This document shows positions 903-11,762 of a stretch of 14,384 bases of DNA, one piece after another. The stretch lies in assembly GCA_009781125.1 (NCBI GenBank), contig WQYS01000023.1:1-14384 (forward strand). Reading direction: 5' to 3'. The notes beneath the pieces were generated by a model. It ran no database searches, was not told the DNA's origin, and saw only the letters and a program-made list of their open reading frames with translations. This stretch comes from Acidobacteriaceae bacterium. GTDB taxonomy: Bacteria > Acidobacteriota > Terriglobia > Terriglobales > Acidobacteriaceae. Each line of letters begins with the position of its first letter. Positions within the stretch are counted from its first letter, which is position 1. The translations under genes and the position numbers were made by a program.

Positions 903-2249
903 TCATTGAACGAACGTGGTGATACTCTCAGGCGGCAGCGTATAGGAGAACGCGCCCTTCGCAACCGCTACGGCGGGCATCTGCGCCAGACCGCCCTGCG
1001 CTGTAGTCTGCCAAGGTCTCATGGAGACGATGTCCGCATTCTTAATCGTGAAGGTCTGCGTGACAGGCGTCGAGCCCGCGTTGATGACCACGATGACGTG
1101 GCGCGCCGCTCCGGCCTCGCTGCCTGAGTACGCTGAGACGTAGACGTTTTTGCCGGGATTTTCGGTAGCCTCGTAGCGGTAGAAGCCGGGCCGTATGAAC
1201 CTTGCGTACTGTCCCAGCGCGTAGCCGTAGAAGGTCGGATTGTCGTGCGGGTCGAGCAGGCCGAAGTTGACGGTGGTCTGGTTCTTCCCGTAGGTCCAGT
1301 CGAGCGACCACCACCAGACGTATGCGTTGAACTGACCCGTCACCAGAGAGTTATGAATCTCCTGAGCTGCGGCAAGGCCGTCCTCGATGAACTGCTCCTG
1401 CGGCTTGCCCTCGCGCTTGATGTAGTGCTCGGTCATCCACAGATCCTTGCCCATCTCCACGGGCTTGGAGTAGTAGGGCATACGGCCCTTCACGCCGTAC
1501 AGGTGTTCGCCGACGATGCCGATCATGTCTCTGGTCTTGGGGTCGTCGAGCGACGGGTTCGACAGGCTGAAGTCGAAGTTGTACGACTCGGGCATGATGA
1601 TCTTCGCCGTCAGCATGGAACCGTATTTTGCAAGCCAGGTATGCAACTGATCAGGCGTCCAACTGACCGACTCGTACTTCACCTTGGGCCCCGACCAGTC
1701 CGGCTCGTTGGCTATCGAAATGGCATCGAGCTTCGCTCCGCCCATGGCCATGAACTTGACGAAGTTCTCCAGAAAGATGGCGTAGTCCTTATAGTGCTCG
1801 GGCCGCAGATATCCGCCGCAAAGCTCGCGCGGATTGCACGGAGGATTGCCGTCGTAAAAAGGCTGCTTTGCTGAACCGGCCTTCATCACAGGCGGCGGCG
1901 TGTAGGGCGAAGCGAAGACGGTTATGCTCGGATTGGCGTCCTTGGCCAGCAGAACATTGTTCCGCTCCATGTACCACTTCTGCGTGACCCATCCGTTCGT
2001 GGGCGAACCCTTGGGATCGACATGCGCGCGTATGATGCTGAGTCCCAACCCCTGCTGCTGGCTGAACAGCGCATTGGCCTGCCTGGGCGAGAGCTTCAGA
2101 AAAGCAGTGGCCCCGCCAAATCCGCGGATGACCTGATGCTTCGCTCCGTAGTCAACCGTTACCGAGGCGCTATCGGTTTCAGCGCTTCCATAACTACCGG
2201 CAAAGACCAGCACCATCGATGCCAGAACTGTGACGAACCTCGAATGCAT
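903..2249 (-). CDS. Secreted GH30 family (subfamily 8-like) xylanase-type glycoside hydrolase
   Basis: Retaining endo-acting clan-A hydrolase of about 448 residues. It has a Sec signal peptide (residues 1-23), a TIM barrel and the side beta-sandwich usual in GH30, ending in the family-typical SITTFVQ. The acid/base is Glu182 in SIANEPDW and the nucleophile is Glu274 in DLWMTEHY. From memory, segments HLYG, DLWMTE, AYVWWW and FIRPGFYR follow Bacillus XynC (glucuronoxylanase) closely. However, the XynC YIRRSYG loop that binds the glucuronate side chain is here SLDWTYG, so glucuronoxylan specificity is doubtful. I chose ATG at 2249 because AAGGAG lies 11 nt upstream and the signal peptide begins there. 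An upstream in-frame GTG at 2273 overlaps the previous stop as GTGA and would add eight residues, but it has no ribosome site. It sits 20 nt after the second sulfatase, within the same operon. Confidence 0.88.
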   Translation of the reverse strand: MHSRFVTVLASMVLVFAGSYGSAETDSASVTVDYGAKHQVIRGFGGATAFLKLSPRQANALFSQQQGLGLSIIRAHVDPKGSPTNGWVTQKWYMERNNVLLAKDANPSITVFASPYTPPPVMKAGSAKQPFYDGNPPCNPRELCGGYLRPEHYKDYAIFLENFVKFMAMGGAKLDAISIANEPDWSGPKVKYESVSWTPDQLHTWLAKYGSMLTAKIIMPESYNFDFSLSNPSLDDPKTRDMIGIVGEHLYGVKGRMPYYSKPVEMGKDLWMTEHYIKREGKPQEQFIEDGLAAAQEIHNSLVTGQFNAYVWWWSLDWTYGKNQTTVNFGLLDPHDNPTFYGYALGQYARFIRPGFYRYEATENPGKNVYVSAYSGSEAGAARHVIVVINAGSTPVTQTFTIKNADIVSMRPWQTTAQGGLAQMPAVAVAKGAFSYTLPPESITTFVQ

Positions 2250-2269
2250 GATCTTACTTACTCCTTCAT

Positions 2270-3889
2270 TCACGGTATAAACGGTTGCGGAGCGGTTCCC
2301 CGGCGATAGGGGGCGTACCAGTTATGCTTTGCAGGCCACTTAGTCTGCATGGGATTGCCCTGCACTCCCGTCGGCAGGCTGTCCTGATTGCGGATCGTCC
2401 ACATCATCAGCTCTTCCATCAGTCGCGCCTGCTCTTTGGCGACGGACGGCTCACCGTAGAGGTTCTTCAGCTCGCAGGGGTCCGACGGCAGGTGATACAA
2501 CTGCCCGTAGCCCATCATGTCGAAGATGAGCTTCCAGTCGCCCATGCGCACCATCTTCTGCGAGCCGCTCTGCGTAACCTTGTTCAGCTCGTCGAAGAAA
2601 GGCTCGATGCCCTGTGGCCTCTTTTCGCTGACGCTGTACGGAACCTTGTCCGCTTCGGTGTAATAGAGCCCGCCGACTCCCACATCGACATACATGCTGC
2701 GGAACTCATCTTCGGAAAACTCCCGGCCTTCGAGCAGCGGCCACAGGCTCCGGCCCTGCACACCGCGAGGAATCTCCGCGCCCATAACCTCGCACAGCGT
2801 AGGCATCATGTCGGCCAGTGAGACATGTGCCTTTGCAGCCGCTGGGGAGGGCTTTACGTGCCATCCGGCCCATACCATGGGAATCCGGGTCAGGCATTCT
2901 GGAAGGCCAATCCCCTTGCGGGCCAGGCCGTAGTCCATCAGGAACTCGCCGTGGTCGGCGGTGAAGATAACGATGGTGTTCTTCACCAGATCGCTCTGCC
3001 GCAGATAGTCCATGAGGCGCGCAAGCTGGTCGTCAATCATGCGCAGCGATCCGAGGTAGTTCGACTTGTAACGCCGCCAGTTGGCTTCGAGCGGAGAGAC
3101 ATCCTGTTCGAGCCCATAGAGCCACTGCGCGCGATAACCCAGCTTATCCAGAGCCTCCGGGCCAGCGCACCGCGCCGGAACCTGCTCGGGCGGAAACATG
3201 TCCCAATAAGGCTTCGGCACCTGCTCGGGATCGTGCGGCTCGGGGATTCCAACCTGCAAGATAAACGGCTGGTCGCCCATCTTCTTCATGAACTCGATGG
3301 AGTCATTCACGATGCGATAAGGAAGCTGCGCCTCCACGGGAAACGGCGTCGGCTCCAGCGAGAGGTTGTAGTCCAGCTTGCGCAGCCACTCGTCGTAGTC
3401 CCTGTGCATCTGCGGCTCGTTGGGGCCGTGCGGACCACCGCCGTGATTGTAGTTTCGCCAGTGGTCCAGAGTTTTCGGGTCGAGATAGGTATGGTTCTTC
3501 CCGATAAGCGCCGTCTTATAGCCCTGGTCCTTAGCCACCTGGTAGAGGTCTTTCTCAAAGAAGGCGGCCTCGGGCATGTGGTTGGTGCGCACGCGATGCG
3601 CCTCGGGCCAGCGTCCGGTCAGCATGGTGACGCGGCTGGGCATACACAGCGGAGTGGAGCAGTAGGCACGGTCGAACGCGATGCCGGAAGCGGCCAGCGC
3701 GTCCTGCGCCGGACTTGTATCGAGCGGATACCCGGAGCGCTTCGTCAGCCCGACCCGGTGCTGATCGGAGACGATAAAGATAATGTTCGGCTTCTCCGTC
3801 CGGACTCCCGCTTGCGCCTCAGCACCAACAGAAGTCGAGGCCGCAACCGCGGTCATGGATGCCAGCTTCAGAAAATCTCTTCGTTCCAT
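2270..3889 (-). CDS. Tat-exported type-I sulfatase
   Basis: Full-length sulfatase of 539 residues, near the usual family size. The leader M-E-R-R-D-F-L-K-L is a textbook twin-arginine motif. The metal site strand NIIFIVSDQHR is at 35-45. The maturation motif is CMPSR with Cys82 as the predicted formylglycine, followed by MLTGRWPEAH. GKNH stands where most relatives have GKWH. A second metal-binding segment, FTADHGEFLMDYG, is followed by ARKG. The C-terminal part has the KLIFDMMGYGQLYHLPSDP block, the small C-terminal domain of the family in which the residual product information is usually given as 'DPxExxNL'. The ribosome site AAGGGAAGGG lies just before ATG at 3889. It begins 18 nt after the preceding sulfatase stop and ends 20 nt before the GH30 start, so it is mid-operon. 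The substrate is not assignable; it differs clearly from its two sulfatase neighbours, so it is probably not a recent duplicate. Confidence 0.93.
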   Translation of the reverse strand: MERRDFLKLASMTAVAASTSVGAEAQAGVRTEKPNIIFIVSDQHRVGLTKRSGYPLDTSPAQDALAASGIAFDRAYCSTPLCMPSRVTMLTGRWPEAHRVRTNHMPEAAFFEKDLYQVAKDQGYKTALIGKNHTYLDPKTLDHWRNYNHGGGPHGPNEPQMHRDYDEWLRKLDYNLSLEPTPFPVEAQLPYRIVNDSIEFMKKMGDQPFILQVGIPEPHDPEQVPKPYWDMFPPEQVPARCAGPEALDKLGYRAQWLYGLEQDVSPLEANWRRYKSNYLGSLRMIDDQLARLMDYLRQSDLVKNTIVIFTADHGEFLMDYGLARKGIGLPECLTRIPMVWAGWHVKPSPAAAKAHVSLADMMPTLCEVMGAEIPRGVQGRSLWPLLEGREFSEDEFRSMYVDVGVGGLYYTEADKVPYSVSEKRPQGIEPFFDELNKVTQSGSQKMVRMGDWKLIFDMMGYGQLYHLPSDPCELKNLYGEPSVAKEQARLMEELMMWTIRNQDSLPTGVQGNPMQTKWPAKHNWYAPYRRGTAPQPFIP

Positions 3890-3907: not shown

Positions 3908-5443
3908 CTACTTCGTGGAACCCGGCGCTTCCAGCGTGAGGTCCTTCTGCGGCCTCGGATGGTCCAGATCGAGCGGATCGTCAAGCTCCGCCTGAAGCTG
4001 CTTCAGCCGCTTCATCAGATCGGCCTTGACATCGGCATACGCGGGATCGTCCGAGAGATCGTGCATCTCCCACGGATCTTTTTCGATGTCGAAGACCTGC
4101 ATCTTCTTCACCTGCGGATAGACGATCAGCTTATGCTTCTTAGTGCGAACCATGCGCTGAAAGTCTCTGTAGTAGCTGAACACGGCATCGTAGACCGGAG
4201 TTGTGTCGCCGCGCAGCATCGGCGCCAGGCTCTTGAACTCGACCGTCGAAGGAATCGGCAGACCCGCCAGCTCGCAGGTAGTCGCGTATAAACAGTGCTG
4301 ATAGACCAACTCATCCACCTGGCTGCCCGGCTTGATTCCGGGGCCTGTGATCAGCAACGGTATGCGCAGGCTGTGATCGTACATGTTCTGCTTGCCCATC
4401 AATCCGTGCTCGCCCACGGCCAGACCGTGGTCGGCGGTCAGGATGACGTAGGTGTTGGAAGCCTTGCCCGTCCGCTCCAGAGCATCGAGAATGCGCCCTA
4501 TCTGCACATCCAGATACGTGATGTGCGCGTAGTATTCGCGGCGATGCAGTTGCACGGCCTCTCTGGTGCGCGGAAACGGAGCCAGCAGTTCGTCGCGAAC
4601 CTTGTGGTCTCCCTGATTGAAGGGATGCTCGGGCAGGAAGTTCGGCGGAACCTCGATCTTATCCTGCGGATACATATCCACGTACTCTTTAGGAGCCTGG
4701 CGAGGATCGTGCGGCGAGTTCCATCCCACATACATAAAGAAGGGCGTATCGCGTTTGGCTACCTTCTGCTCCAGATGCTCGACTACCTGGTCCGCGTACA
4801 TCTCCGCGGAGTGCTGGATGCGGTCGGGCTTCTTATCGCGCCACAGACCGAGATGTAACCATTGTCCCTTCTGCGAGGTGTCCCACGGCTCCCACGTATT
4901 GCCCGGACTGGGGCGGTTATAGGCATCGCCAAAGGCCTTGCCGTCTAATCCCGTGGACGGAAACCACGCCGGCCCAACCGTGCCCATCTCCTTGAAGCTG
5001 CGCGCCAGCAGCACGTCGCCGTTGTTCATGTGCCACTTGCCGCAGATGTAGGTGTCGTATCCAGCGGCCCCGAAGGTCTGGCCCCAGGTGTTGACATCGT
5101 TCGCACCGGCCTGCACATGGAACGCGGTCAGGCCCGTGTTCAACTTCATGCGGCTGGGCATGCACACGGCAGCCACCCACGAGCCCTGCTGAAAGCTATG
5201 CGTAAACGCGCATCCCGTCCTGACCATGCGGTCGAGGTTCGGCGTGCGGACCTCTTTGTTGTTGAGCGAATGGATGGTGCGAAACATAAGATCGTCGCAG
5301 ATCATGAACAGAAAGTTCGGCTGTGACGACGCGGCTCCAGATGCGGCTCCATTGGCTGCGAGCGCCTTGGGCACAGTGCCTGCGGCAACCGTAGTTGCGG
5401 CTACGCCCGACGAAACCAATCCGATAAACTTGCGGCGATCCAT
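3908..5443 (-). CDS. Tat-exported type-I sulfatase (choline/iduronate-sulfatase-like superfamily member)
   Basis: Sulfatase of 511 residues, full length. The leader M-D-R-R-K-F-I-G is a twin-arginine motif followed by an Ala/Val-rich segment ending near LAA (about residue 30). Metal ligands are in FLFMICDDL (44-52). The maturation motif is CMPSR with Cys94 as the predicted formylglycine, followed by KLNTG. GKWHM and the very typical TADHGLAVGEHGLMGK block follow, then YDHSLRIPL. The C-terminal block is VFDIEKDPWEMHDLSDDP, the usual end-domain signature. AAGGAG lies 11 nt before ATG at 5443. A strong terminator-like hairpin lies directly upstream, so dosage of this and the following genes may be lower than that of the GH39-like gene. 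The final 20 residues are charged and look dispensable. Sulfate-ester hydrolysis is secure, the substrate is not. Confidence 0.93.
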   Translation of the reverse strand: MDRRKFIGLVSSGVAATTVAAGTVPKALAANGAASGAASSQPNFLFMICDDLMFRTIHSLNNKEVRTPNLDRMVRTGCAFTHSFQQGSWVAAVCMPSRMKLNTGLTAFHVQAGANDVNTWGQTFGAAGYDTYICGKWHMNNGDVLLARSFKEMGTVGPAWFPSTGLDGKAFGDAYNRPSPGNTWEPWDTSQKGQWLHLGLWRDKKPDRIQHSAEMYADQVVEHLEQKVAKRDTPFFMYVGWNSPHDPRQAPKEYVDMYPQDKIEVPPNFLPEHPFNQGDHKVRDELLAPFPRTREAVQLHRREYYAHITYLDVQIGRILDALERTGKASNTYVILTADHGLAVGEHGLMGKQNMYDHSLRIPLLITGPGIKPGSQVDELVYQHCLYATTCELAGLPIPSTVEFKSLAPMLRGDTTPVYDAVFSYYRDFQRMVRTKKHKLIVYPQVKKMQVFDIEKDPWEMHDLSDDPAYADVKADLMKRLKQLQAELDDPLDLDHPRPQKDLTLEAPGSTK

Positions 5444-5532: not shown

Positions 5533-7092
5533 CTACAAGCCCGATACAACAGCGACAGCGAAGGGCGCCAGGGTTACATGCGCGCTCTTCAAAGTTTCCT
5601 TCCGGGGCTCCTGCTCTCCGGAGGCCTGATCGACAACCTGAACCTTAAGCGGAGCCTTGAAGACTCCGGCCAGATCAACCGTCTGCGGCTGGTCTGTAGT
5701 GTTGATGAGCATCACCCTGCGGCCCGCGGGCGTGATGTACGCCTGAGCAAATACGTTCTCCGTAGAAGACTCCGTGGCAACAACTTTGTCCCCCGGCCCG
5801 AAGTTATGCGTAATCAGCCACAGCGCCCAGTAGTGCGAATTGGGCTTCATGCTGTCGTTATTCATCATCGAGATCGACGGACACTGCGTCGGATATCCGT
5901 CCATCTGCGACATGCTGATCAGCGGAACACCCATCTTCGTTGCCACGATGTAGGTGGCCGCCCAGTTGGCTCCGGTGGCGTTCCAGTAGAGCGGGTGGTA
6001 CTCCTTGTACTCGTGCTCGGCCTTGCAGTTGTGCTCCTTCGGCACCAGAGCGTCGAAGGTGCCGCCCTCGTCCATGATGACCTGGGTATGCGGAGAGAGC
6101 TGGTCGCGGATCTTCATCACCTCGGCGAACCTGCTCTCCATGCCTTTGGCCGAAGCGCCGCCGGTCTCGGCCTTCGGCATGGCCGTGAAATATGCCTCAT
6201 GCCATTTAGACGGATCGTTGCCCGAGTTGACATAGTTGTGGAAGCTGAACCACTTGATCAGCGGCACCGCCTCGGGATCGTGGTTCTTGGGGTCGAGGAA
6301 GTAGCGCGCCCACGGAATCTCGGTCATGGCCGGTTCGGGCCCGTAGAACTCCACGCTGGGATCGATCTTGTGGATCGCCTTCACTACGGCGTCGTAGAGC
6401 TTCGTGTACTGCTGGACGTTAATCTTGTTCTCCAGCCAGGTCTCGTTCATCACGCCCCAGGTATCGATCTTGTAGTGATGGCCGCTCTTGTGCTCCTTGC
6501 CCAGCTCGTCGGTGAACCCGCCCTGCGTGTACCACTGGTAGATGCGCGCCTGATAGTCGGCAAACTGCTTGCCGTCAGGATCCTTCAGCAGAGTTCCCTT
6601 GGTGTCGTCGTTGGTGTAGTTATAGAAGGACACGTTGGGGTCGGTGGGAACCTCCATCGAAGGAACGTTGAACATCCAGCGCGGCACGGTGCCGATATTG
6701 ACGTGATGACGGCCCGTGGTGTGAGCGTAGAAGTCCTCCATCAGGTCGTCGAGGTACTTGAAGTCCCAGAAGGTCTCCTTATCGGTCGGCTCCTTCAGCT
6801 CGGGAACCGCCTGTATGGGAATCGAGTACCACGCCTGCAAGCGGGTGTCGTTGGTCTTCAGGTCTTCCAGCGCCTTGAACTCCGGATCGTGCATCGGATG
6901 GGTGCGCAGCGTGTTCCTGTGAGCAAGAATCTGGGTCGTCGGAACGGTGCTGGAGACGCGCGTGACGTCCGCCCACTTCACGCTTACCTTGGCGTTTCCG
7001 TCCGCCGCTTGAGCTGAGACAAAGACCGAAGCCGCAAAGACGGCTGCCAGAACGCTGATGCCAACACGAATCTTCTTACCGGTTACTTTCAT
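5533..7092 (-). CDS. Secreted clan-A (GH39-like) glycoside hydrolase
   Basis: Protein of 519 residues with a Sec-type signal peptide (basic MKVTGKKIR, hydrophobic core, cleavage near SAQA, residues 26-29). The catalytic TIM barrel shows clan-A hallmarks. WGVMNET carries the probable acid/base Glu217 after strand 4, and VIMDEGG carries the probable nucleophile Glu342 after strand 7. The WFSFHNY segment (281-287) is typical of a substrate-contacting strand-6 loop. The C-terminal approximately 100 residues (VFAQAYITPAGRRVMLINTT onward) read as a beta-sandwich accessory domain, as in GH39 and GH30 enzymes. Overall it is most like GH39 (beta-xylosidase or iduronidase type), but a different clan-A family is possible and substrate cannot be assigned. 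GGGAGG precedes ATG at 7092 by 6 nt. It is first in the minus-strand polysaccharide operon and sits behind a promoter with a LacI-type operator. Confidence 0.8.
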   Translation of the reverse strand: MKVTGKKIRVGISVLAAVFAASVFVSAQAADGNAKVSVKWADVTRVSSTVPTTQILAHRNTLRTHPMHDPEFKALEDLKTNDTRLQAWYSIPIQAVPELKEPTDKETFWDFKYLDDLMEDFYAHTTGRHHVNIGTVPRWMFNVPSMEVPTDPNVSFYNYTNDDTKGTLLKDPDGKQFADYQARIYQWYTQGGFTDELGKEHKSGHHYKIDTWGVMNETWLENKINVQQYTKLYDAVVKAIHKIDPSVEFYGPEPAMTEIPWARYFLDPKNHDPEAVPLIKWFSFHNYVNSGNDPSKWHEAYFTAMPKAETGGASAKGMESRFAEVMKIRDQLSPHTQVIMDEGGTFDALVPKEHNCKAEHEYKEYHPLYWNATGANWAATYIVATKMGVPLISMSQMDGYPTQCPSISMMNNDSMKPNSHYWALWLITHNFGPGDKVVATESSTENVFAQAYITPAGRRVMLINTTDQPQTVDLAGVFKAPLKVQVVDQASGEQEPRKETLKSAHVTLAPFAVAVVSGL

Positions 7093-7194
7093 TCAATTCC
7101 TCCCGCTGTTCGTAAACGAGTTGTCCCGCTGGACAGCGATTCAAACTCTAGCTAAAGCCCGCATGACCAGCTTCGGCACCGGGCGTGATTTCCT

Positions 7195-7216
7195 GTTTTT
7201 GAATGCTTTCAAAAAC
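7195..7216. promoter_or_regulatory. Predicted LacI-family operator of the GH39-like operon
   Basis: Nine-base arms GTTTTTGAA and TTCAAAAAC are perfectly complementary around TGCT, giving a 22-bp palindrome with only one mismatched pair and a central GC. Its core (7200-7211, minus strand TGAAAGCATTCA) has the TGAAA/TTTCA design of LacI-family sites. It lies 13-34 nt downstream of the predicted -10 element, where a bound repressor would block initiation or clearance. Confidence 0.65.
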
Positions 7217-7229
7217 ATCGGGTAAAAGC

Positions 7230-7259
7230 ACCTTACTCCACCGCAAATCCGCTTGTCAA
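7230..7259 (-). promoter_or_regulatory. Predicted sigma-70 promoter of the GH39-like/sulfatase operon
   Basis: Read on the minus strand, a consensus TTGACA (7254-7259) is followed by an 18-nt spacer and TAAGGT (7230-7235, weak -10). The implied start, near 7222, leaves a leader of about 130 nt before the ATG. The -35 element lies within CTTGTCAAGGA (+ strand), which recurs at the transporter promoter. Confidence 0.55.
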
Positions 7260-7280
7260 GGACTGAATCAGACAATCACA

Positions 7281-7293
7281 TGAAAAGTTTTCA
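7281..7293. promoter_or_regulatory. Odd-length palindrome TGAAAAGTTTTCA, possible auxiliary operator
   Basis: Perfect 6+1+6 palindrome about 22 bp upstream of the -35 of the GH39-like promoter. It carries TGAAA and TTTCA half-sites like the other candidate operators, but its one-base-longer spacing would place the half-sites differently. It may be an auxiliary or non-LacI site, or chance in AT-rich sequence. Confidence 0.3.
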
Positions 7294-7300
7294 CGAAGCA

Positions 7301-7342
7301 CATCCAGGTACGCCAAGCCTAATGGTATGACGTACCTGGATG
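7301..7342 (-). terminator. Strong hairpin after the transporter gene, probable terminator
   Basis: Perfect 12-bp arms CATCCAGGTACG (7301-7312) and CGTACCTGGATG (7331-7342) enclose an 18-nt loop, 20 nt past the transporter stop on the minus strand. No T run follows directly; the nearest T-rich stretch, AACTTTTC, begins about 12 nt further. It is placed to separate the transporter transcript from the GH39-like promoter. It could instead be an RNA-stabilising or protein-binding palindrome. Confidence 0.5.
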
Positions 7343-7362
7343 GAAATGTTAGCGTGCGATGC

Positions 7363-8373
7363 CTAGTGCGTCATCGAAAACACCAGCAGCAGCAGTCCCG
7401 AAAGGAAGCAGACAAACATGGCGGCGGTCATCCACTGCGTGCCGCGCGAAGCTCCCCTGGTCTCCTTCCAGATGAAGATGCCCCAGATGGCTGCAATCAT
7501 GGTTCCGCCCTGCCCCAGGCCGTAGGCGATTGCAGGGCTGGCCACCTTCGACGCCACGATGTTCGCCGTAAAGCCAATGCCGTTAATGACGCCGCCCAGT
7601 ATGCCGACCAGATGCCACGGGATGCCGCGGCTGAAGAACTCCGAGTAGGTCGCCGTGGGGCCCTTCACCGGACGCCGCATCATGTAGCTATTGAAGACGA
7701 AGCTCGACAGCAGCGCGCCCACCGTATTCACCAGCACCGCCGCATAAGGTCCAAAGCGGCCTGGAGTCAAGCTGACGAAATCGGGCGACACCGACCGCAG
7801 CGTCAGGTAATAGAAGAGTCCCATGAGGACGCCGCCGACGAGTGCAAGGGTGATGCCCTTGGCCACCACGCCCTGCTCTGTGCTCTTGTCTTTCTGGATG
7901 TTGCGGTACACCAGGCTGTTGATGATGATCGCCAGCGCAACCAAAGCCACGCCACCGAAGATCAACGCCGGATTGCCGCGCGGGTCAAAGAAGTAGTTGA
8001 TCAGCACGCCCTCCACCAGCGCCGTGCCAATGGCGATCGGTTGAGCGATGGCTATGCCTGCGATGTCGACCGCGGACATGAAGAGGATGTTGGCGAGGTT
8101 CCAGACCACGCCGCCCGCCAGCGCCCATCCGTAGGTGCCCATCGAGCCTTGGCGCAGATCCTCAATCAGGCCGCGTCCGGTCGATCCCATCGATCCGAAC
8201 GTCAGGCCTACGATCAGCGGCAGCAGAACGTAGCCGATGTTTGTGTCCCAGTAGAACAGCGAAAATGGATATGAGGGGCGCTTCAGCTTCAGCGTGTTCG
8301 CCCACGATCCCCAGCAGATCATGGTGAGCACGCACAGGGCGATGGCCAATGGATACGACTGAACAAGCATCAT
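7363..8373 (-). CDS. Ureide-permease/GRP-like (DMT superfamily) sugar or nucleoside transporter
   Basis: Inner-membrane protein of 336 residues, almost entirely hydrophobic, with about ten membrane helices. The first ends in ICWGSWANT, a motif I know from bacterial relatives of plant ureide permeases and the glucose/ribose porter (GRP) group. GGVVWNLANI followed by PIAIGTALVEGVLINYFFDPR matches the plant ureide-permease pattern of a GN-containing helix then a T-x-L-N-Y-F-x-D loop. Such proteins are often annotated 'multidrug DMT permease' but are frequently found beside ribokinase genes, which fits sugar or nucleoside uptake here. I chose ATG at 8373; an adjacent ATG at 8370 is equally possible. 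A TTG at 8403 would add ten residues but lacks a ribosome site, while AGGAAGG lies inside that extension. It has its own promoter and LacI-type operator. The exact substrate is unproven. Confidence 0.8.
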   Translation of the reverse strand: MMLVQSYPLAIALCVLTMICWGSWANTLKLKRPSYPFSLFYWDTNIGYVLLPLIVGLTFGSMGSTGRGLIEDLRQGSMGTYGWALAGGVVWNLANILFMSAVDIAGIAIAQPIAIGTALVEGVLINYFFDPRGNPALIFGGVALVALAIIINSLVYRNIQKDKSTEQGVVAKGITLALVGGVLMGLFYYLTLRSVSPDFVSLTPGRFGPYAAVLVNTVGALLSSFVFNSYMMRRPVKGPTATYSEFFSRGIPWHLVGILGGVINGIGFTANIVASKVASPAIAYGLGQGGTMIAAIWGIFIWKETRGASRGTQWMTAAMFVCFLSGLLLLVFSMTH

Positions 8374-8481
8374 AACGGACGGTTCCGCCTTCCTTGCGAT
8401 CAATAGAATCAGAATCGTCCCGCCACAAAAGCCGCTTACTCCCGGGTGGAAGGCGGCAGGCCTTCGCTTCGGGAGCAGCGG

Positions 8482-8493
8482 TGAAAGGTTTCA
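8482..8493. promoter_or_regulatory. Predicted LacI-family operator of the transporter gene
   Basis: TGAAAGGTTTCA is palindromic except for its central GG and differs by one base from the perfect TGAAACGTTTCA found upstream of the ribokinase gene. It lies 16 nt downstream of the predicted transporter -10 element. Confidence 0.6.
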
Positions 8494-8509
8494 AGGACGA
8501 ACCGGATGA

Positions 8510-8539
8510 AGTGTAGGACGCCTCTGCAAGACTTGTCAA
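8510..8539 (-). promoter_or_regulatory. Predicted sigma-70 promoter of the transporter gene
   Basis: On the minus strand TTGACA (8534-8539), an 18-nt spacer and TACACT (8510-8515) form a good promoter, with start expected near 8503 and a leader of about 130 nt. The rest of the 408-bp gap between the transporter and the regulator gene (8374-8781) holds the matching operator, the regulator's own promoter, and otherwise GC-rich sequence in which I see no gene. Confidence 0.6.
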
Positions 8540-8676
8540 GGAAGCCTGCCGATTTTTCCTCCGATAGCCGGCCTCTCCGGGAACATTTCTCAGGCCGCGC
8601 GCGGCTCTCTCCCCGCCCGGCCAATCCATAAAGACCGGCGGGAGAATGTGATGAACCGGTAACAAACGGAAACTGG

Positions 8677-8685
8677 TGTTATGCT
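8677..8685 (+). promoter_or_regulatory. Possible extended -10 promoter of the LacI-family regulator gene
   Basis: TGTTATGCT fits the extended -10 form TGn-TATnnT. No convincing -35 element is seen 16-18 nt upstream. The start would fall near 8692, giving a leader of about 90 nt. A small ATGCT/AGCAT inverted repeat (8681-8695) overlaps the expected start. No TGAAA/TTTCA operator is seen here, so I find no sign of autorepression. Confidence 0.35.
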
Positions 8686-8781
8686 GTGATAGCATCCGCC
8701 AGTGAGATATGCGCAGACCTGGTTGATCGGGCACGGTGGCTGCATGTGGCACGATATTTGAATCTGGAAGAAGGCACGCGC

Positions 8782-9831
8782 ATGGCAAACATGAAACAGA
8801 TCGCCGAGCTTGCAGGAGTCTCGCTGGGTACGGTGTCCCACGTACTGAACGGCACCGTAAGGGTGCGGGAGCCACTGCGCAAGCGGGTTTTGGATGCCGT
8901 GCAGGCGACCGGCTACCGCCCCAGCCAGTTGGCGCGAGGACTGCGCAAGGACAAAACGAACATCCTGGCGATGATTATTCCCGATATTTTGAATCCTTTT
9001 TTCCCGGGCGTGGTGCGCGGAGCCGAGGATCTTGCATCGGCCAACGACTATCGCCTGGTGCTGTGCAATACGGATAACGACCCGGAGAAGGAGCTCGCGC
9101 ACGTGAAGGCGCTCGAAGCCTATCTTCCCTCCGGGCTGATCGTGATTCCGTCAGACATGAGCGAGCTGGCCTACGAGGCGGACTCCTTCATTCGAGCAGG
9201 AGCTGCCGTGGTCTGCGTAGACCGGCGTCCGCGTAACTGGGACGGCGACAGCGTCACGATTAACAACGTCGCCGGAGCCATGGACGCCACGTCGTATCTG
9301 ATTGGACTGGGACATCGCCATATCGCGGCCATCACCGGGCCGCTGCACCTGACCAGTTCGCAGGACCGCTTGAACGGATTCAAGCGGGCGCTGCGGCAGG
9401 CGGGACTGGATTCGCCTCCCGGATACCTGCACGAGACCACCTTCGACCGCAGCGGCGGTTATGCCAAGACAAAAATTCTGATGCGCCTGGTGCCGCGTCC
9501 GACGGCGATCATGGCATGTAACGACATGATCGCGCTGGGCGCGCTGATGGCCATCCGCGACGAAGGACTGCGCTGTCCGCAGGATGTCTCGCTGATCGGC
9601 TTCGACGGACTCGATCTGACCGAGGTCACTACGCCGCAGTTGAGTTCGGTGTACCAGTCACCCTACCAGGTCGGTGCCGAGGCCGTGCAACTGGCGCTGG
9701 ACCGGCTCAAGCGCCCCAAAGGCCCCATGCGCCGCGTGGTGCTGAAGACGGAGCTGAGGATCCGCGAGTCGGTAGCGCCTCCGTCGCAAAACGGACAGAC
9801 GGCTCCGCCAATAATCCAGCAGATGGCATGA
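8782..9831 (+). CDS. LacI-family transcriptional regulator
   Basis: DNA-binding sugar-responsive regulator of 349 residues, the usual family size. The N-terminal helix-turn-helix reads MKQIAELAGVSLGTVSHVLNG (about 4-24). It is followed by the hinge GYRPSQLARGL, with Leu54 as the likely minor-groove-intercalating residue that selects a central CG or GC step. The rest is the periplasmic-binding-protein fold: NILAMIIPDILNPFFPGVVRG, VCVDRR, GHRHIAAITG, and PTAIMACNDMIALGALMAIRDEG with the family-typical effector-pocket Asp-rich segment, then SLIGFDG. The start is ATG at 8782, with AGAAGG 8 nt upstream; the frame extends further upstream but that part lacks family similarity. It lies between the transporter and the ribokinase, and three candidate operators in the window match its family's site type, so it probably controls the whole cluster. 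The effector is unknown. Confidence 0.93.
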   Translation: MANMKQIAELAGVSLGTVSHVLNGTVRVREPLRKRVLDAVQATGYRPSQLARGLRKDKTNILAMIIPDILNPFFPGVVRGAEDLASANDYRLVLCNTDNDPEKELAHVKALEAYLPSGLIVIPSDMSELAYEADSFIRAGAAVVCVDRRPRNWDGDSVTINNVAGAMDATSYLIGLGHRHIAAITGPLHLTSSQDRLNGFKRALRQAGLDSPPGYLHETTFDRSGGYAKTKILMRLVPRPTAIMACNDMIALGALMAIRDEGLRCPQDVSLIGFDGLDLTEVTTPQLSSVYQSPYQVGAEAVQLALDRLKRPKGPMRRVVLKTELRIRESVAPPSQNGQTAPPIIQQMA

Positions 9832-9840
9832 CCGCTGTGC

Positions 9841-9892
9841 CCTGTACTCCGGAGACAGGCATGAAACTCTTCTCATTTGCATGAGAGTTCAT
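9841..9892 (+). terminator. Hairpin-rich end region of the regulator gene, weak terminator candidate
   Basis: Two consecutive inverted repeats lie past the stop: CCTGT/ACAGG around 9841-9859, and TCTCAT-TTGC-ATGAGA (9871-9886) flanked by ATGAAAC/GTTCAT. No proper T run follows, so intrinsic termination is uncertain. Confidence 0.3.
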
Positions 9893-9943
9893 CGGCTCCT
9901 CGGCTGAGGATTACCCTGCGGTCACCGCCTCCACAAACAAGGC

Positions 9944-9973
9944 TTGACAGCGCTAACTAAGTTGGAATACAGT
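9944..9973 (+). promoter_or_regulatory. Predicted sigma-70 promoter of the ribokinase-mutarotase operon
   Basis: TTGACA (9944-9949), an 18-nt spacer and TACAGT (9968-9973). The expected start near 9980 gives a leader of about 130 nt. The 281-bp gap between regulator and ribokinase holds the weak terminator, this promoter, the operator below and a leader with no recognisable riboswitch. Confidence 0.65.
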
Positions 9974-10011
9974 TGCACGAGGAAATGAAACGTTTCAACA
10001 TCAAGTTGGAA
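9959..10011 (+). repeat. Direct repeat AAGTTGGAA flanking the ribokinase operator
   Basis: Nine identical bases at 9959-9967 and 10003-10011, 44 bp apart, bracket the -10 element and the operator. This could be a second factor's paired site or chance. Confidence 0.3.
9986..9997. promoter_or_regulatory. Predicted LacI-family operator of the ribokinase operon
   Basis: TGAAACGTTTCA is a perfect 12-bp palindrome with central CG, the classical LacI/PurR/CcpA-type half-site pattern. It starts 12 nt after the -10 element, overlapping the early transcribed region, as expected for a repressor site. Confidence 0.78.
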
Positions 10012-10112: not shown

Positions 10113-11084
10113 ATGAGGAAACCGATTGTTGTTGTGGGTAGCGTGAATCTGGACCTGGTCAGCAAGGGAAAGAAGATCCCGGCCCCGGGAGAGACGGTGC
10201 GTGGTGAGTCGTTTCAAACCTTCAACGGCGGAAAGGGCGCGAACCAGGCGGTTGCGGCGGCCCGGCTCGGCTACCCGGTCAGCATGATTGCGAAGGTCGG
10301 CGGAGACGACTTCGGCGCGCGCCTGCGCGGCGCTCTCGAAGCCGAGAAGATCGATGTCGCTCATGTGGGAACGGCTGCCTCGCTGTCGTCCGGAGTGGCC
10401 ATGATCTCCGTGGACGAGAAGGGGCAGAACAGCATCACCGTGGTGCCGGGCGCAAACGACGCTCTTATGCCCGCCGATCTGGATGCCTGCCGCGAGACGC
10501 TGCGCGCCGCAGGTATGATCCTGGCGCAGCTGGAGATTCCCCTGGAGACGGTGGAGCGGCTCTCGCAGCTTGCCGCTGAGTTCGGCGTACCCATGATGCT
10601 CGATCCCGCTCCGGCGAGGCCGATTCCGCAGCAGATTCTTAAGCGCGTCACCTACCTGACGCCCAACGAGACCGAGACCCTCACGCTGTGCGGAATCACG
10701 AAGTCCGAACTGGATCTCACGACTGCCGCCGAGTGCGCAAAGCAGCTCCAGGCGCAGGGCGTGGCCAATGTCGTGATTAAGATGGGCAGCCGCGGAGCCT
10801 ATGTAACCGACGCCAGCGGAGCGGCTACGTTCGTTCCGACCATCAAGGTTGCGGTAGTGGATTCAACGGCAGCGGGAGACGCCTTCAACGGCGCGTTCGC
10901 ATCCGCTCTGCTGAGCGGCAAGGATCTGCTGCAAGCGGTGCGCTATGCGGCGGCGGCGGGAGCCGTATCGGTGACGCGCGCGGGCGCGCAGCCTGCCATG
11001 CCGGCGGCCGCCGAAGTGGAAGCTCTGCTTGCCCAAAACGGGCAGGCACTGAAGGAACCAGAGATGGTAAAAATTGGAGGGTAA
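10113..11084 (+). CDS. rbsK: Ribokinase (PfkB/carbohydrate kinase family)
   Basis: Cytoplasmic ATP-dependent sugar kinase of 323 residues, slightly longer than the roughly 305-310 of typical ribokinases because of a short C-terminal tail. N-terminal VVVGSVNLDLV is the ribokinase first strand. FNGGKGANQAVAAARLG (37-53) is PfkB signature 1 with the sugar-binding GGKGAN. TPNETE (183-188) is conserved. VDSTAAGDAFNG (249-260) is signature 2 with catalytic base Asp256 and the anion-hole Ala-Ala-Gly, where many relatives read D-T-T-G-A-G-D. The start ATG at 10113 has only a weak upstream GGATGGAA, and a five-codon reading frame (ATG at 10102) ends in the overlapping ATGA. It is followed after 11 nt by the FucU/RbsD gene, forming a phosphorylation plus mutarotation pair. 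Ribose is the default substrate, but another pentose or deoxysugar is possible in this context. Confidence 0.9.
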   Translation: MRKPIVVVGSVNLDLVSKGKKIPAPGETVRGESFQTFNGGKGANQAVAAARLGYPVSMIAKVGGDDFGARLRGALEAEKIDVAHVGTAASLSSGVAMISVDEKGQNSITVVPGANDALMPADLDACRETLRAAGMILAQLEIPLETVERLSQLAAEFGVPMMLDPAPARPIPQQILKRVTYLTPNETETLTLCGITKSELDLTTAAECAKQLQAQGVANVVIKMGSRGAYVTDASGAATFVPTIKVAVVDSTAAGDAFNGAFASALLSGKDLLQAVRYAAAAGAVSVTRAGAQPAMPAAAEVEALLAQNGQALKEPEMVKIGG

Positions 11085-11095
11085 GAGTAGAGCTT

Positions 11096-11527
11096 ATGCT
11101 GAAGACATTAGGTATTCTGCACACGCCAGAGCTTCTGCATGTTCTGGCATCGATGGGCCACGGCGATGTAATCGCCATCGTGGACCGCAACTATCCGGCG
11201 GTCTCGAACGCGCAGCGGCTGGTGCGGCTCGACGGGGCAGACCTGCCCGCTGCCGTCACGGCCTGTCTGCAACTGATGCCGATAGACACGTTCGTTGAGA
11301 ACCCTGTCCAGCGCATGATGCAGGTGCACGCCCCCAGTGAGGTTCCCGAGGTACAGCAAGAGTGTCAAGCCATCCTCGACAAGGCGGAAGGCAAGCACAT
11401 TCCCATGGAAGCCGTCGAGCGGCTCGCGTTCTACGAGCAGGCCCGCAAGGCCTTCGCCATCGTCTACACCACCGAATCGCGGCCTTATGGATGTCTTCTC
11501 TTCAAGAAGGGCGTCGTCTTCGATTAG
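11096..11527 (+). CDS. fucU: RbsD/FucU-family sugar mutarotase (FucU-like)
   Basis: Protein of 143 residues, the normal size for FucU/RbsD, which interconvert alpha and beta anomers (or pyranose forms) of monosaccharides and act as decamers. The N-terminus MLKTLGILHTPELLHVLASMGHGD carries the conserved HGD (His22, Asp24). The C-terminal block FYEQARKAFAIVYTTESRPYG then KKGV resembles E. coli FucU (from memory: FYERAQKAFAIV then KKGV) more than RbsD, so an L-fucose-type mutarotase is the better guess. GGAGGG lies 14 nt before ATG at 11096, overlapping the end of the ribokinase gene; the 11-nt gap marks a shared transcript. A FucU-like mutarotase beside a ribokinase rather than fuculokinase is notable and leaves the sugar open. 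The gene is followed by an intergenic repeat palindrome that probably ends the transcript. Confidence 0.82.
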   Translation: MLKTLGILHTPELLHVLASMGHGDVIAIVDRNYPAVSNAQRLVRLDGADLPAAVTACLQLMPIDTFVENPVQRMMQVHAPSEVPEVQQECQAILDKAEGKHIPMEAVERLAFYEQARKAFAIVYTTESRPYGCLLFKKGVVFD

Positions 11528-11557: not shown

Positions 11558-11625
11558 CTTGTCATTCCGATTGGCTTGTCATCCCGATTGACTTGTCATC
11601 CCGATTGACTTGTCATTCCGAACGG
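11558..11625 (+). repeat. Four tandem 17-bp units of CTTGTCATTCCGATTGG type
   Basis: Units start at 11558, 11575, 11592 and 11609; the first three differ by only a base or two (T/C in ATTCC or ATCCC, G/A at the end). The fourth diverges after TTCCGA where it becomes the left arm of the palindrome that follows. Two 19-bp copies of GGAATGACAATTCGTGAG (11703-11740), the inverse of the same TTGTCATTCC core, stand on the far side. Confidence 0.85.
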
Positions 11626-11711
11626 AGTGAGGGATCTGCTTTTTCCCTGCCGCCACAAACATTTACGGTGCGGAAGAAGAAAGCAGGTTCCTCGTTTCAC
11701 TCGGAATGACA
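11611..11711 (+). repeat. REP-like intergenic palindrome between convergent genes, probable terminator
   Basis: Two 32-nt arms (11611-11642 and 11680-11711), both ending in TGTCATTCCGA outward and CTGCTTT inward, match at 25 of 32 positions when inverted. Five of the seven differences give G-U pairs in the plus-strand RNA, so 30 of 32 positions can pair there. It fills the gap between convergent fucU and the ROK kinase gene and can serve as terminator or mRNA 3'-end stabiliser. I recall related TGTCATTCC-type elements as frequent in Acidobacteriaceae intergenic regions; this needs a genome search. Confidence 0.75.
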
Positions 11712-11762
11712 ATTCGTGAGTGGAATGACAATTCGTGAGGACATACCAATCCGGATATCACT

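Follow-up and report, generated by a model that had tools for sequence, protein, structure and literature searches.

Candidate operators of an RbsR-like LacI-family repressor at three promoters of an Acidobacteriaceae sugar locus

Local sugar regulons under LacI-family repressors are a kind of system that is already known, and we describe here what appears to be one of them, in a 14,384-base contig from an Acidobacteriaceae bacterium (WQYS01000023.1; hereafter, the window). Three promoters in the window are followed by similar palindromes. These palindromes are quite probably, judging from sequence comparison, operators of the RbsR-like LacI repressor encoded between them, which would respond to a ribose-type inducer and control genes for sugar uptake and breakdown. 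Escherichia coli RbsR and its relatives include the best solved relative of the window regulator, share the operator inner half GAAACGTTTC and likewise regulate ribokinase and a mutarotase of the RbsD/FucU family. In contrast to E. coli, the window and its relatives have a single RhaT/RbsU-like transporter and no adjacent ATP-binding cassette system, the operator centre is mostly GC rather than CG, the regulator's own promoter has no site, hydrolases and outer-membrane receptors belong to the regulon, and the NCBIfam cut-offs for RbsR are not reached.

The rus locus of Bacteroides thetaiotaomicron is said to combine an outer-membrane receptor of the SusC/D type with a permease, ribokinases, a nucleoside hydrolase and a glycosidase; it is reportedly ribose-responsive, with a regulator of another type. 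The logic is the same, whereas a LacI-family repressor and OMP_b-brl_4/CarboxypepD_reg receptors are found here. The Lactobacillus sakei rbsUDK-rbsR system (PMC3146418) also has an RbsU transporter, RbsD and ribokinase under a local LacI-family RbsR, but there rbsR is in an operon with its targets, and that operon includes neither hydrolases nor an outer-membrane receptor. More generally, according to a LacI survey (PMC4052901), local regulons of this family have an even palindrome and mostly neighboring catabolic targets; CG lies at the centre for 1173 of the 1303 regulators covered, and autoregulation is seen for 72%. The sites described here mostly have GC at the centre (44 of 81), and none of 56 sites lies at the lacI promoter. 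The string 'Acidobacteri' is absent from the main text of that survey. We found no description of such a regulon in Acidobacteria in the literature searched, of which coverage was incomplete; absence from print is unproven.

Three promoter–palindrome composites and their conservation

Each composite consists of TTGACA, 18 nt, a TAnnnT −10 element and a TGAAANNTTTCA-like palindrome. On the minus strand, TAAGGT is followed after 18 nt by TGAAAGCATTCA, and TACACT after 16 nt by TGAAACCTTTCA; on the plus strand, TACAGT is followed after 12 nt by TGAAACGTTTCA. The operators thus begin 12–18 nt past the −10 element, around the predicted transcription start. This arrangement had been proposed in the original prediction, and all three promoters were found as described. 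The TGAAA/TTTCA core, which had been assigned to all three palindromes, is strict at only two of them; operator 1 reads TGAAA/ATTCA and has longer arms of 10 bp, which flank a 4-bp centre (7194–7217).

The TTGACA-N18-TAnnnT pattern occurs three times in the window, exactly in the three composites (expected 0.02), and none of 200 shuffles reached that count, in agreement with the earlier judgment that chance was unlikely. TGAANNNNTTCA occurs four times (expected 0.17; no shuffle of 200 reached four). The fourth match, at 9371–9382, is inside lacI and has no TTGACA-N18-TAnnnT promoter. A chance origin of the composites was rejected on the basis of the shuffles together with the blind half-site test and the relatives-only matrix given below. 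We also rejected an ordinary housekeeping promoter: TTGACA-N17-19-TAnnnT was found 68 times with an operator nearby and 9 times without in 845,526 bases, a sample of loci picked for the regulator and in many cases also for the motif, so that these counts are not a genome-wide rate. The near-consensus promoter therefore goes with the regulon.

In the genome collection, the regulator is closest to those of Acidobacteriaceae metagenome-assembled genomes (77 and 68% identity), followed by Edaphobacter lichenicola (60%). At E ≤ 1e-70, it occurs at 64 places, distributed over 60 of the 299 family genomes. We compared 66 LacI loci, including the window and four second copies. In a blind half-site test, any 5-mer followed by 2 nt and its reverse complement was counted 8–20 nt past a promoter with five of six TTGACA positions, N17–19 and TAnnnT. 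TGAAA was found in 36 of the 66 loci, and the runner-up, AGCTT, in two; in any context, TGAAA was found in 46 loci and the next half-site in five. A position matrix built from 50 unique sites of relatives, with the window left out (consensus AATTTGAAAGCTTTCAAATT), placed the three window sites at ranks 1–3 (24.1, 21.6 and 15.7), while the next-ranked match scored 10.7, under the minimum of the training sites (14.0; median 24.0).

The strict composite was found in 36 of the 299 family genomes (56 sites), and a reversed control gave none. Thirty-four of these 36 genomes are among the 60 with the regulator (Fisher p 5e-26, uncorrected for kinship), and one of the two genomes outside that set, G170, has a piece of LacI at a contig end adjoining a site. 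Forty-two sites are within 5 kb of lacI, 8 are farther away on the same contig and 6 are on contigs without a listed lacI. A class-wide draw showed the pattern in 18 of 299 genomes, 16 of them already in the family draw. E. lichenicola (G003) has eight LacI-type helix-turn-helix domains but just two composites, both flanking the orthologous lacI, and no such composite was found in 20 paralogue loci (82,820 bases). The 77 loci compared, some of them overlapping, contain 81 sites. With spacings of 16–19 allowed, the promoter spacing was 18 in 56, 17 in 23 and 19 in 2, and the operator centre was GC in 44, CG in 20, GG or CC in 16 and TC in 1. The palindrome is thus conserved upstream of orthologous genes in related genomes, a test that had been named as able to refute the original prediction, and the relatives-built matrix recovered the window sites. 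The comparison with relatives strongly supports these palindromes as shared operators of the local LacI protein.

Promoters of similar design are not confined to this regulator, and uniqueness of the design was rejected, since 3 of the 20 paralogue loci have similar promoters with other palindromes. In the LacI-family loci L174, L175 and L176 of G003, consensus-like promoters are followed by GGAAGCGCTTCC, GAAAACGTTTTC and GGTAACGTTACC, hinting at a general promoter–operator design. Two further promoters of the same design, at G004:C1:67868 and 75985 (L041, L046), have TGAAGCGCTTCA operators, probably sites of another regulator; one of them adjoins a distant LacI-family gene (27% identity).

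The regulator and its predicted inducer

The regulator matches both LacI-family domains, PF00356 with 51.8 bits and PF13377 with 136 bits. None of the other window proteins scanned (12 in all, 10 with Pfam and/or 10 with NCBIfam) is clearly a regulator, as had been claimed. The ROK kinase is far under the cut-offs of the NagC and Mlc models (63.8 of 650 and 52.7 of 530, respectively). The best PDB relative of the regulator is the ribose operon repressor 9ny7. Using the ribose contacts of the E. coli ribose-binding protein, listed in a table of PMC2630998, and the protein sequence from the MG1655 record, we compared pockets by alignment. All 10 contacts are identical in the window regulator (NFFDRRFNDQ) and in 57 of 60 relatives (65 minus 5 with stops or N), compared with 8 of 10 in E. 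coli RbsR. Among 17 paralogues from three relatives (20 loci, 3 short proteins dropped), one has all 10 contacts and the others 4–8. The ribose-type pocket, the 9ny7 relative and a kinase that passes TIGR02152 favor D-ribose, and the inducer is most likely D-ribose or a close analogue, as far as can be judged from sequence. The palindrome upstream of E. coli rbsD, AGCGAAACGTTTCGCT, and site 3 share GAAACGTTTC; Serratia RbsR is predicted to bind AAACGTTT (PMC5601083).

The regulator gene had been noted to lack a site of its own, and this turned out to be a recurrent feature. Within 3 kb of lacI, 39 loci together have 56 sites, none of them at the lacI promoter. Upstream, 33 are on the strand opposite to lacI and one, 2.0 kb away in G193, has the lacI direction; downstream, 18 share the strand of lacI and 4 do not. 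In G208, a relaxed site pointing in the lacI direction is found 1.6 kb upstream. In the window, site 2 is 288 nt from the lacI start, and none of the 12 best matrix matches falls between them; site 2 may nevertheless affect lacI.

The lacI coding sequence itself contains a 20-nt operator-like palindrome, CGCTTGAACGGATTCAAGCG, at 9367–9386. Of 65 relatives searched over 110 nt, 11 have a TGAA-N4-TTCA match, which in 9 of them falls on the same codons as in the window; in a smaller set of 10 relatives, 2 have it there. The absent promoter and low score disfavor an auxiliary operator, and the palindrome probably results from a conserved protein motif at this position.

Predicted regulon content and gene order

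In the window, genes for sulfatase A, a GH30-like protein, sulfatases B and C, the GH39-like protein and the RhaT/RbsU-like transporter are on the minus strand, followed by the LacI-family regulator, the ribokinase and the FucU/RbsD-family mutarotase on the plus strand (Table 1). A ROK kinase, an aspartate-semialdehyde-dehydrogenase-like protein and a PssA-like protein, all on the minus strand, complete the contig. No outer-membrane receptor is encoded in the window.

Targets in the relatives were counted as the first gene recognized behind each of the 81 sites, using our own probe set, with families named from representatives with Pfam. Outer-membrane receptor-type proteins came first at 30 sites, the transporter at 16, ribokinase at 5, fucU, an Rpe-like epimerase and GH29-type proteins at 4 each, LamG and TPR proteins at 3 each, a fusion protein with an FGE domain at 2 and the GH39-like protein at 1 (the window); nothing was recognized at 9. 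The commonest conserved targets are therefore outer-membrane receptors, the RhaT/RbsU-like transporter and ribokinase, and GH39-like/fucU and other hydrolases are lineage-specific targets. The operators before ribokinase and before the transporter, a putative ribose carrier, are conserved. The FGE-domain fusion (L121:1387-3591 and orthologues), a 735-residue protein with a C-terminal FGE/SUMF1-like domain, is a frequent regulon neighbor across the family. Of the candidates scored, 6441 are homologous to it at E ≤ 1e-30; its N-terminal part had no Pfam match, and its structure model was poor and unusable, with a predicted local distance difference test (pLDDT) score of 44.

The GH39-like protein was found at E ≤ 1e-120 in 4 of the 299 family genomes, exactly the nearest ones (G001, G040, G171 and G208). 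In these, a GH13-like gene comes after fucU and GH39-like, a gene of the nucleoside hydrolase family comes after ribokinase, and the epimerase shares its operon with RpiB, a ROK kinase and, in three of the four genomes, GH127. In all four, the fucU–GH39-like genes are behind a TGAA-N4-TTCA operator past such a promoter, which makes the window GH39-like operator credible. The stretches read of these genomes contained no sulfatase homologue. Three window proteins have PF00884 and the C-x-P/A-x-R motif of type I sulfatases, but sulfatase genes are so far peculiar to the window contig and are putative members of the regulon. The idea that the regulon covers an entire sulfated-polysaccharide pathway is thus not borne out by the conserved targets, and the pathway reading should shift to a ribose-type sugar plus lineage-specific hydrolases.

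The GH39-like protein itself misses the PF01229 gathering cut-off (21.6 of 26 bits); two of three homologues pass (27.4 and 29.2) and the third scores 25.0. It had no sequence match in the PDB; of the candidates scored, 928 are homologous to it at E ≤ 1e-3. N216-E217 and E342 are kept in 32 aligned sequences, consistent with the catalytic pair of clan GH-A. The predicted model is good (pLDDT 89.5) and resembles GH30, GH51, GH39 and GH79-type enzymes, with query template modeling scores of 0.51–0.60 and 8–14% identity among the 50 matches listed. From this model, the protein is probably a glycosidase, with specificity unassigned.

Between fucU and the ROK gene, at 11578–11740, short repeats around 'cttgtcatcccgattga' and 'cattccga' were spotted by eye.

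Table 1. Features of the window, with positions on the forward strand.
Feature	Position	Strand	Basis or comment
Promoter 1, TTGACA-N18-TAAGGT, GH39-like/sulfatase gene row	7230..7259 (7259->7230)	−	
Operator 1, TGTTTTTGAA-TGCT-TTCAAAAACA	7194..7217; core 7200–7211	.	candidate; matrix rank 1, score 24.1
GH39-like secreted protein	5533..7092	−	predicted fold clan GH-A-like; invariant N216-E217 and E342
Sulfatase C	3908..5443	−	PF00884, CMPSR
Sulfatase B	2270..3889	−	PF00884, CMPSR
GH30-like protein	903..2273	−	Pfam/NCBIfam scan
Sulfatase A, truncated by contig end	1..846	−	PF00884, CAPYR
Promoter 2, TTGACA-N18-TACACT, transporter	8510..8539 (8539->8510)	−	
Operator 2, TGAAAGGTTTCA	8482..8493	.	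candidate; matrix rank 3, score 15.7
RhaT/GlcU/RbsU-like sugar transporter	7363..8403	−	PF06800, PF07168; alternative ATG start possible at 8373
LacI-family regulator, RbsR-like	8782..9831	+	Pfam, NCBIfam, PDB relative, pocket residues
Promoter 3, TTGACA-N18-TACAGT, rbsK-fucU	9944..9973	+	
Operator 3, TGAAACGTTTCA	9986..9997	.	candidate; matrix rank 2, score 21.6
Ribokinase	10113..11084	+	TIGR02152 340.4 bits, cut-off 299.65; PRK11142 311.5, cut-off 341
RbsD/FucU-family mutarotase, closer to FucU	11096..11527	+	Pfam/NCBIfam

Proposed mechanism and alternatives

Like other local regulons of the LacI family, the locus has a conserved palindrome at neighboring catabolic promoters that co-occurs with the regulator, and from this, the gene content and the pocket residues we infer the following mechanism. 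With no inducer present, the repressor would sit just past the start of the three near-consensus promoters and block transcription. An intracellular sugar, D-ribose or a close analogue, would enter the pocket and release the repressor, switching on uptake by the transporter, mutarotation by the FucU-like protein and phosphorylation by ribokinase. In the window lineage, release would also switch on secreted hydrolases, namely the GH39-like protein and the co-directional GH30-like and sulfatase genes, presumably transcribed with it, and these hydrolases would free the inducing sugar from a larger compound. The lacI gene would not be controlled via such a site at its own promoter.

Several observations weigh against this mechanism or parts of it. 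The strict composite is missing within 3 kb in 30 of the 66 LacI loci, some of which have relaxed forms, and recognition-helix types do not cleanly split loci with sites from those without; recognition-helix residues were dropped as a predictor of site presence for this reason. In G223, the other genome with a composite outside the 60, no recognizable regulator was found in the 11 kb read around the site. The score of site 2 is not far above the lowest among the training sites, and read-through into lacI may occur from the distant sites in G193 and G208. In NCBIfam, the regulator stays under the cut-offs of both RbsR models (229.7 of 531 and 216.9 of 382 bits) and is therefore called RbsR-like, not RbsR; the ribokinase misses PRK11142, and the mutarotase scores higher with FucU (94.9) than with RbsD (39.9), both under the cut-off. 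A paralogue in G123 (36% identity) has an identical pocket.

The identity of the sugar is where an alternative has most to offer. The same regulon might be induced by a ribo-configured hexose or derivative of the D-allose or allulose type, with ribokinase-like and ROK kinases, RpiB and epimerase forming an allose-like pathway. E. coli RpiB also acts on allose-6-phosphate. D-allose or a similar hexose would also agree with the set of epimerase, RpiB and ROK kinase behind the operator in the four nearest genomes. Epimerase and RpiB are second copies there, whereas G003 and G123 have one each. In single representatives, however, the epimerase is closer to Rpe (208.5, cut-off 212.6; PRK05581 passed) than to allulose-6-phosphate epimerase (173.5, cut-off 271), RpiB scores 193.5 against a cut-off of 138.65 for ribose-5-phosphate isomerase, and the ROK protein is far under the cut-off for allose kinase (113.7 of 253). 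The kinases pass TIGR02152, and the window has neither rpe nor rpiB. We consider a hexose inducer unlikely.

Doubts about which protein binds, and where, carry less weight. Operators 2 and 3 could be genuine and operator 1 a chance palindrome, leaving the GH39-like and sulfatase genes outside the regulon; its imperfect core and the lack of sulfatases downstream of GH39-like in the stretches read of the four relatives would agree with this. Yet operator 1 is the top matrix match in the window, has the same promoter design, and has counterparts at fucU–GH39-like in all four genomes with that protein, so this is very improbable. A shade less probable still is binding by another LacI-family paralogue encoded elsewhere. 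Six relatives have 7–14 LacI-type helix-turn-helix domains each, and three paralogue loci have consensus-like promoters followed by palindromes, but those palindromes have other half-sites, and 34 of the 36 genomes with the TGAAA composite also have this regulator, with the composite mostly adjoining lacI.

If the RbsR-like repressor acts as proposed, this is a sugar regulon of an acidobacterium in which the operator is defined and both the inducer and the one regulator are predicted, and genes of unassigned specificity, such as those for the GH39-like protein, the FGE-domain fusion and the outer-membrane receptors, become testable. A wider scenario, which we regard as possible but doubtful, is that a ribose-sensing repressor governs glycan degradation, the GH39-like protein being a new ribofuranosidase-type enzyme and the sulfatases acting on a sulfated ribose-bearing glycan or riboside; soil Acidobacteriaceae would then forage for bound ribose through a LacI pathway that evolved independently of that in Bacteroides. 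The regulon also points to ribose in bound form, as part of larger molecules, as a possible regulated carbon source in soil.

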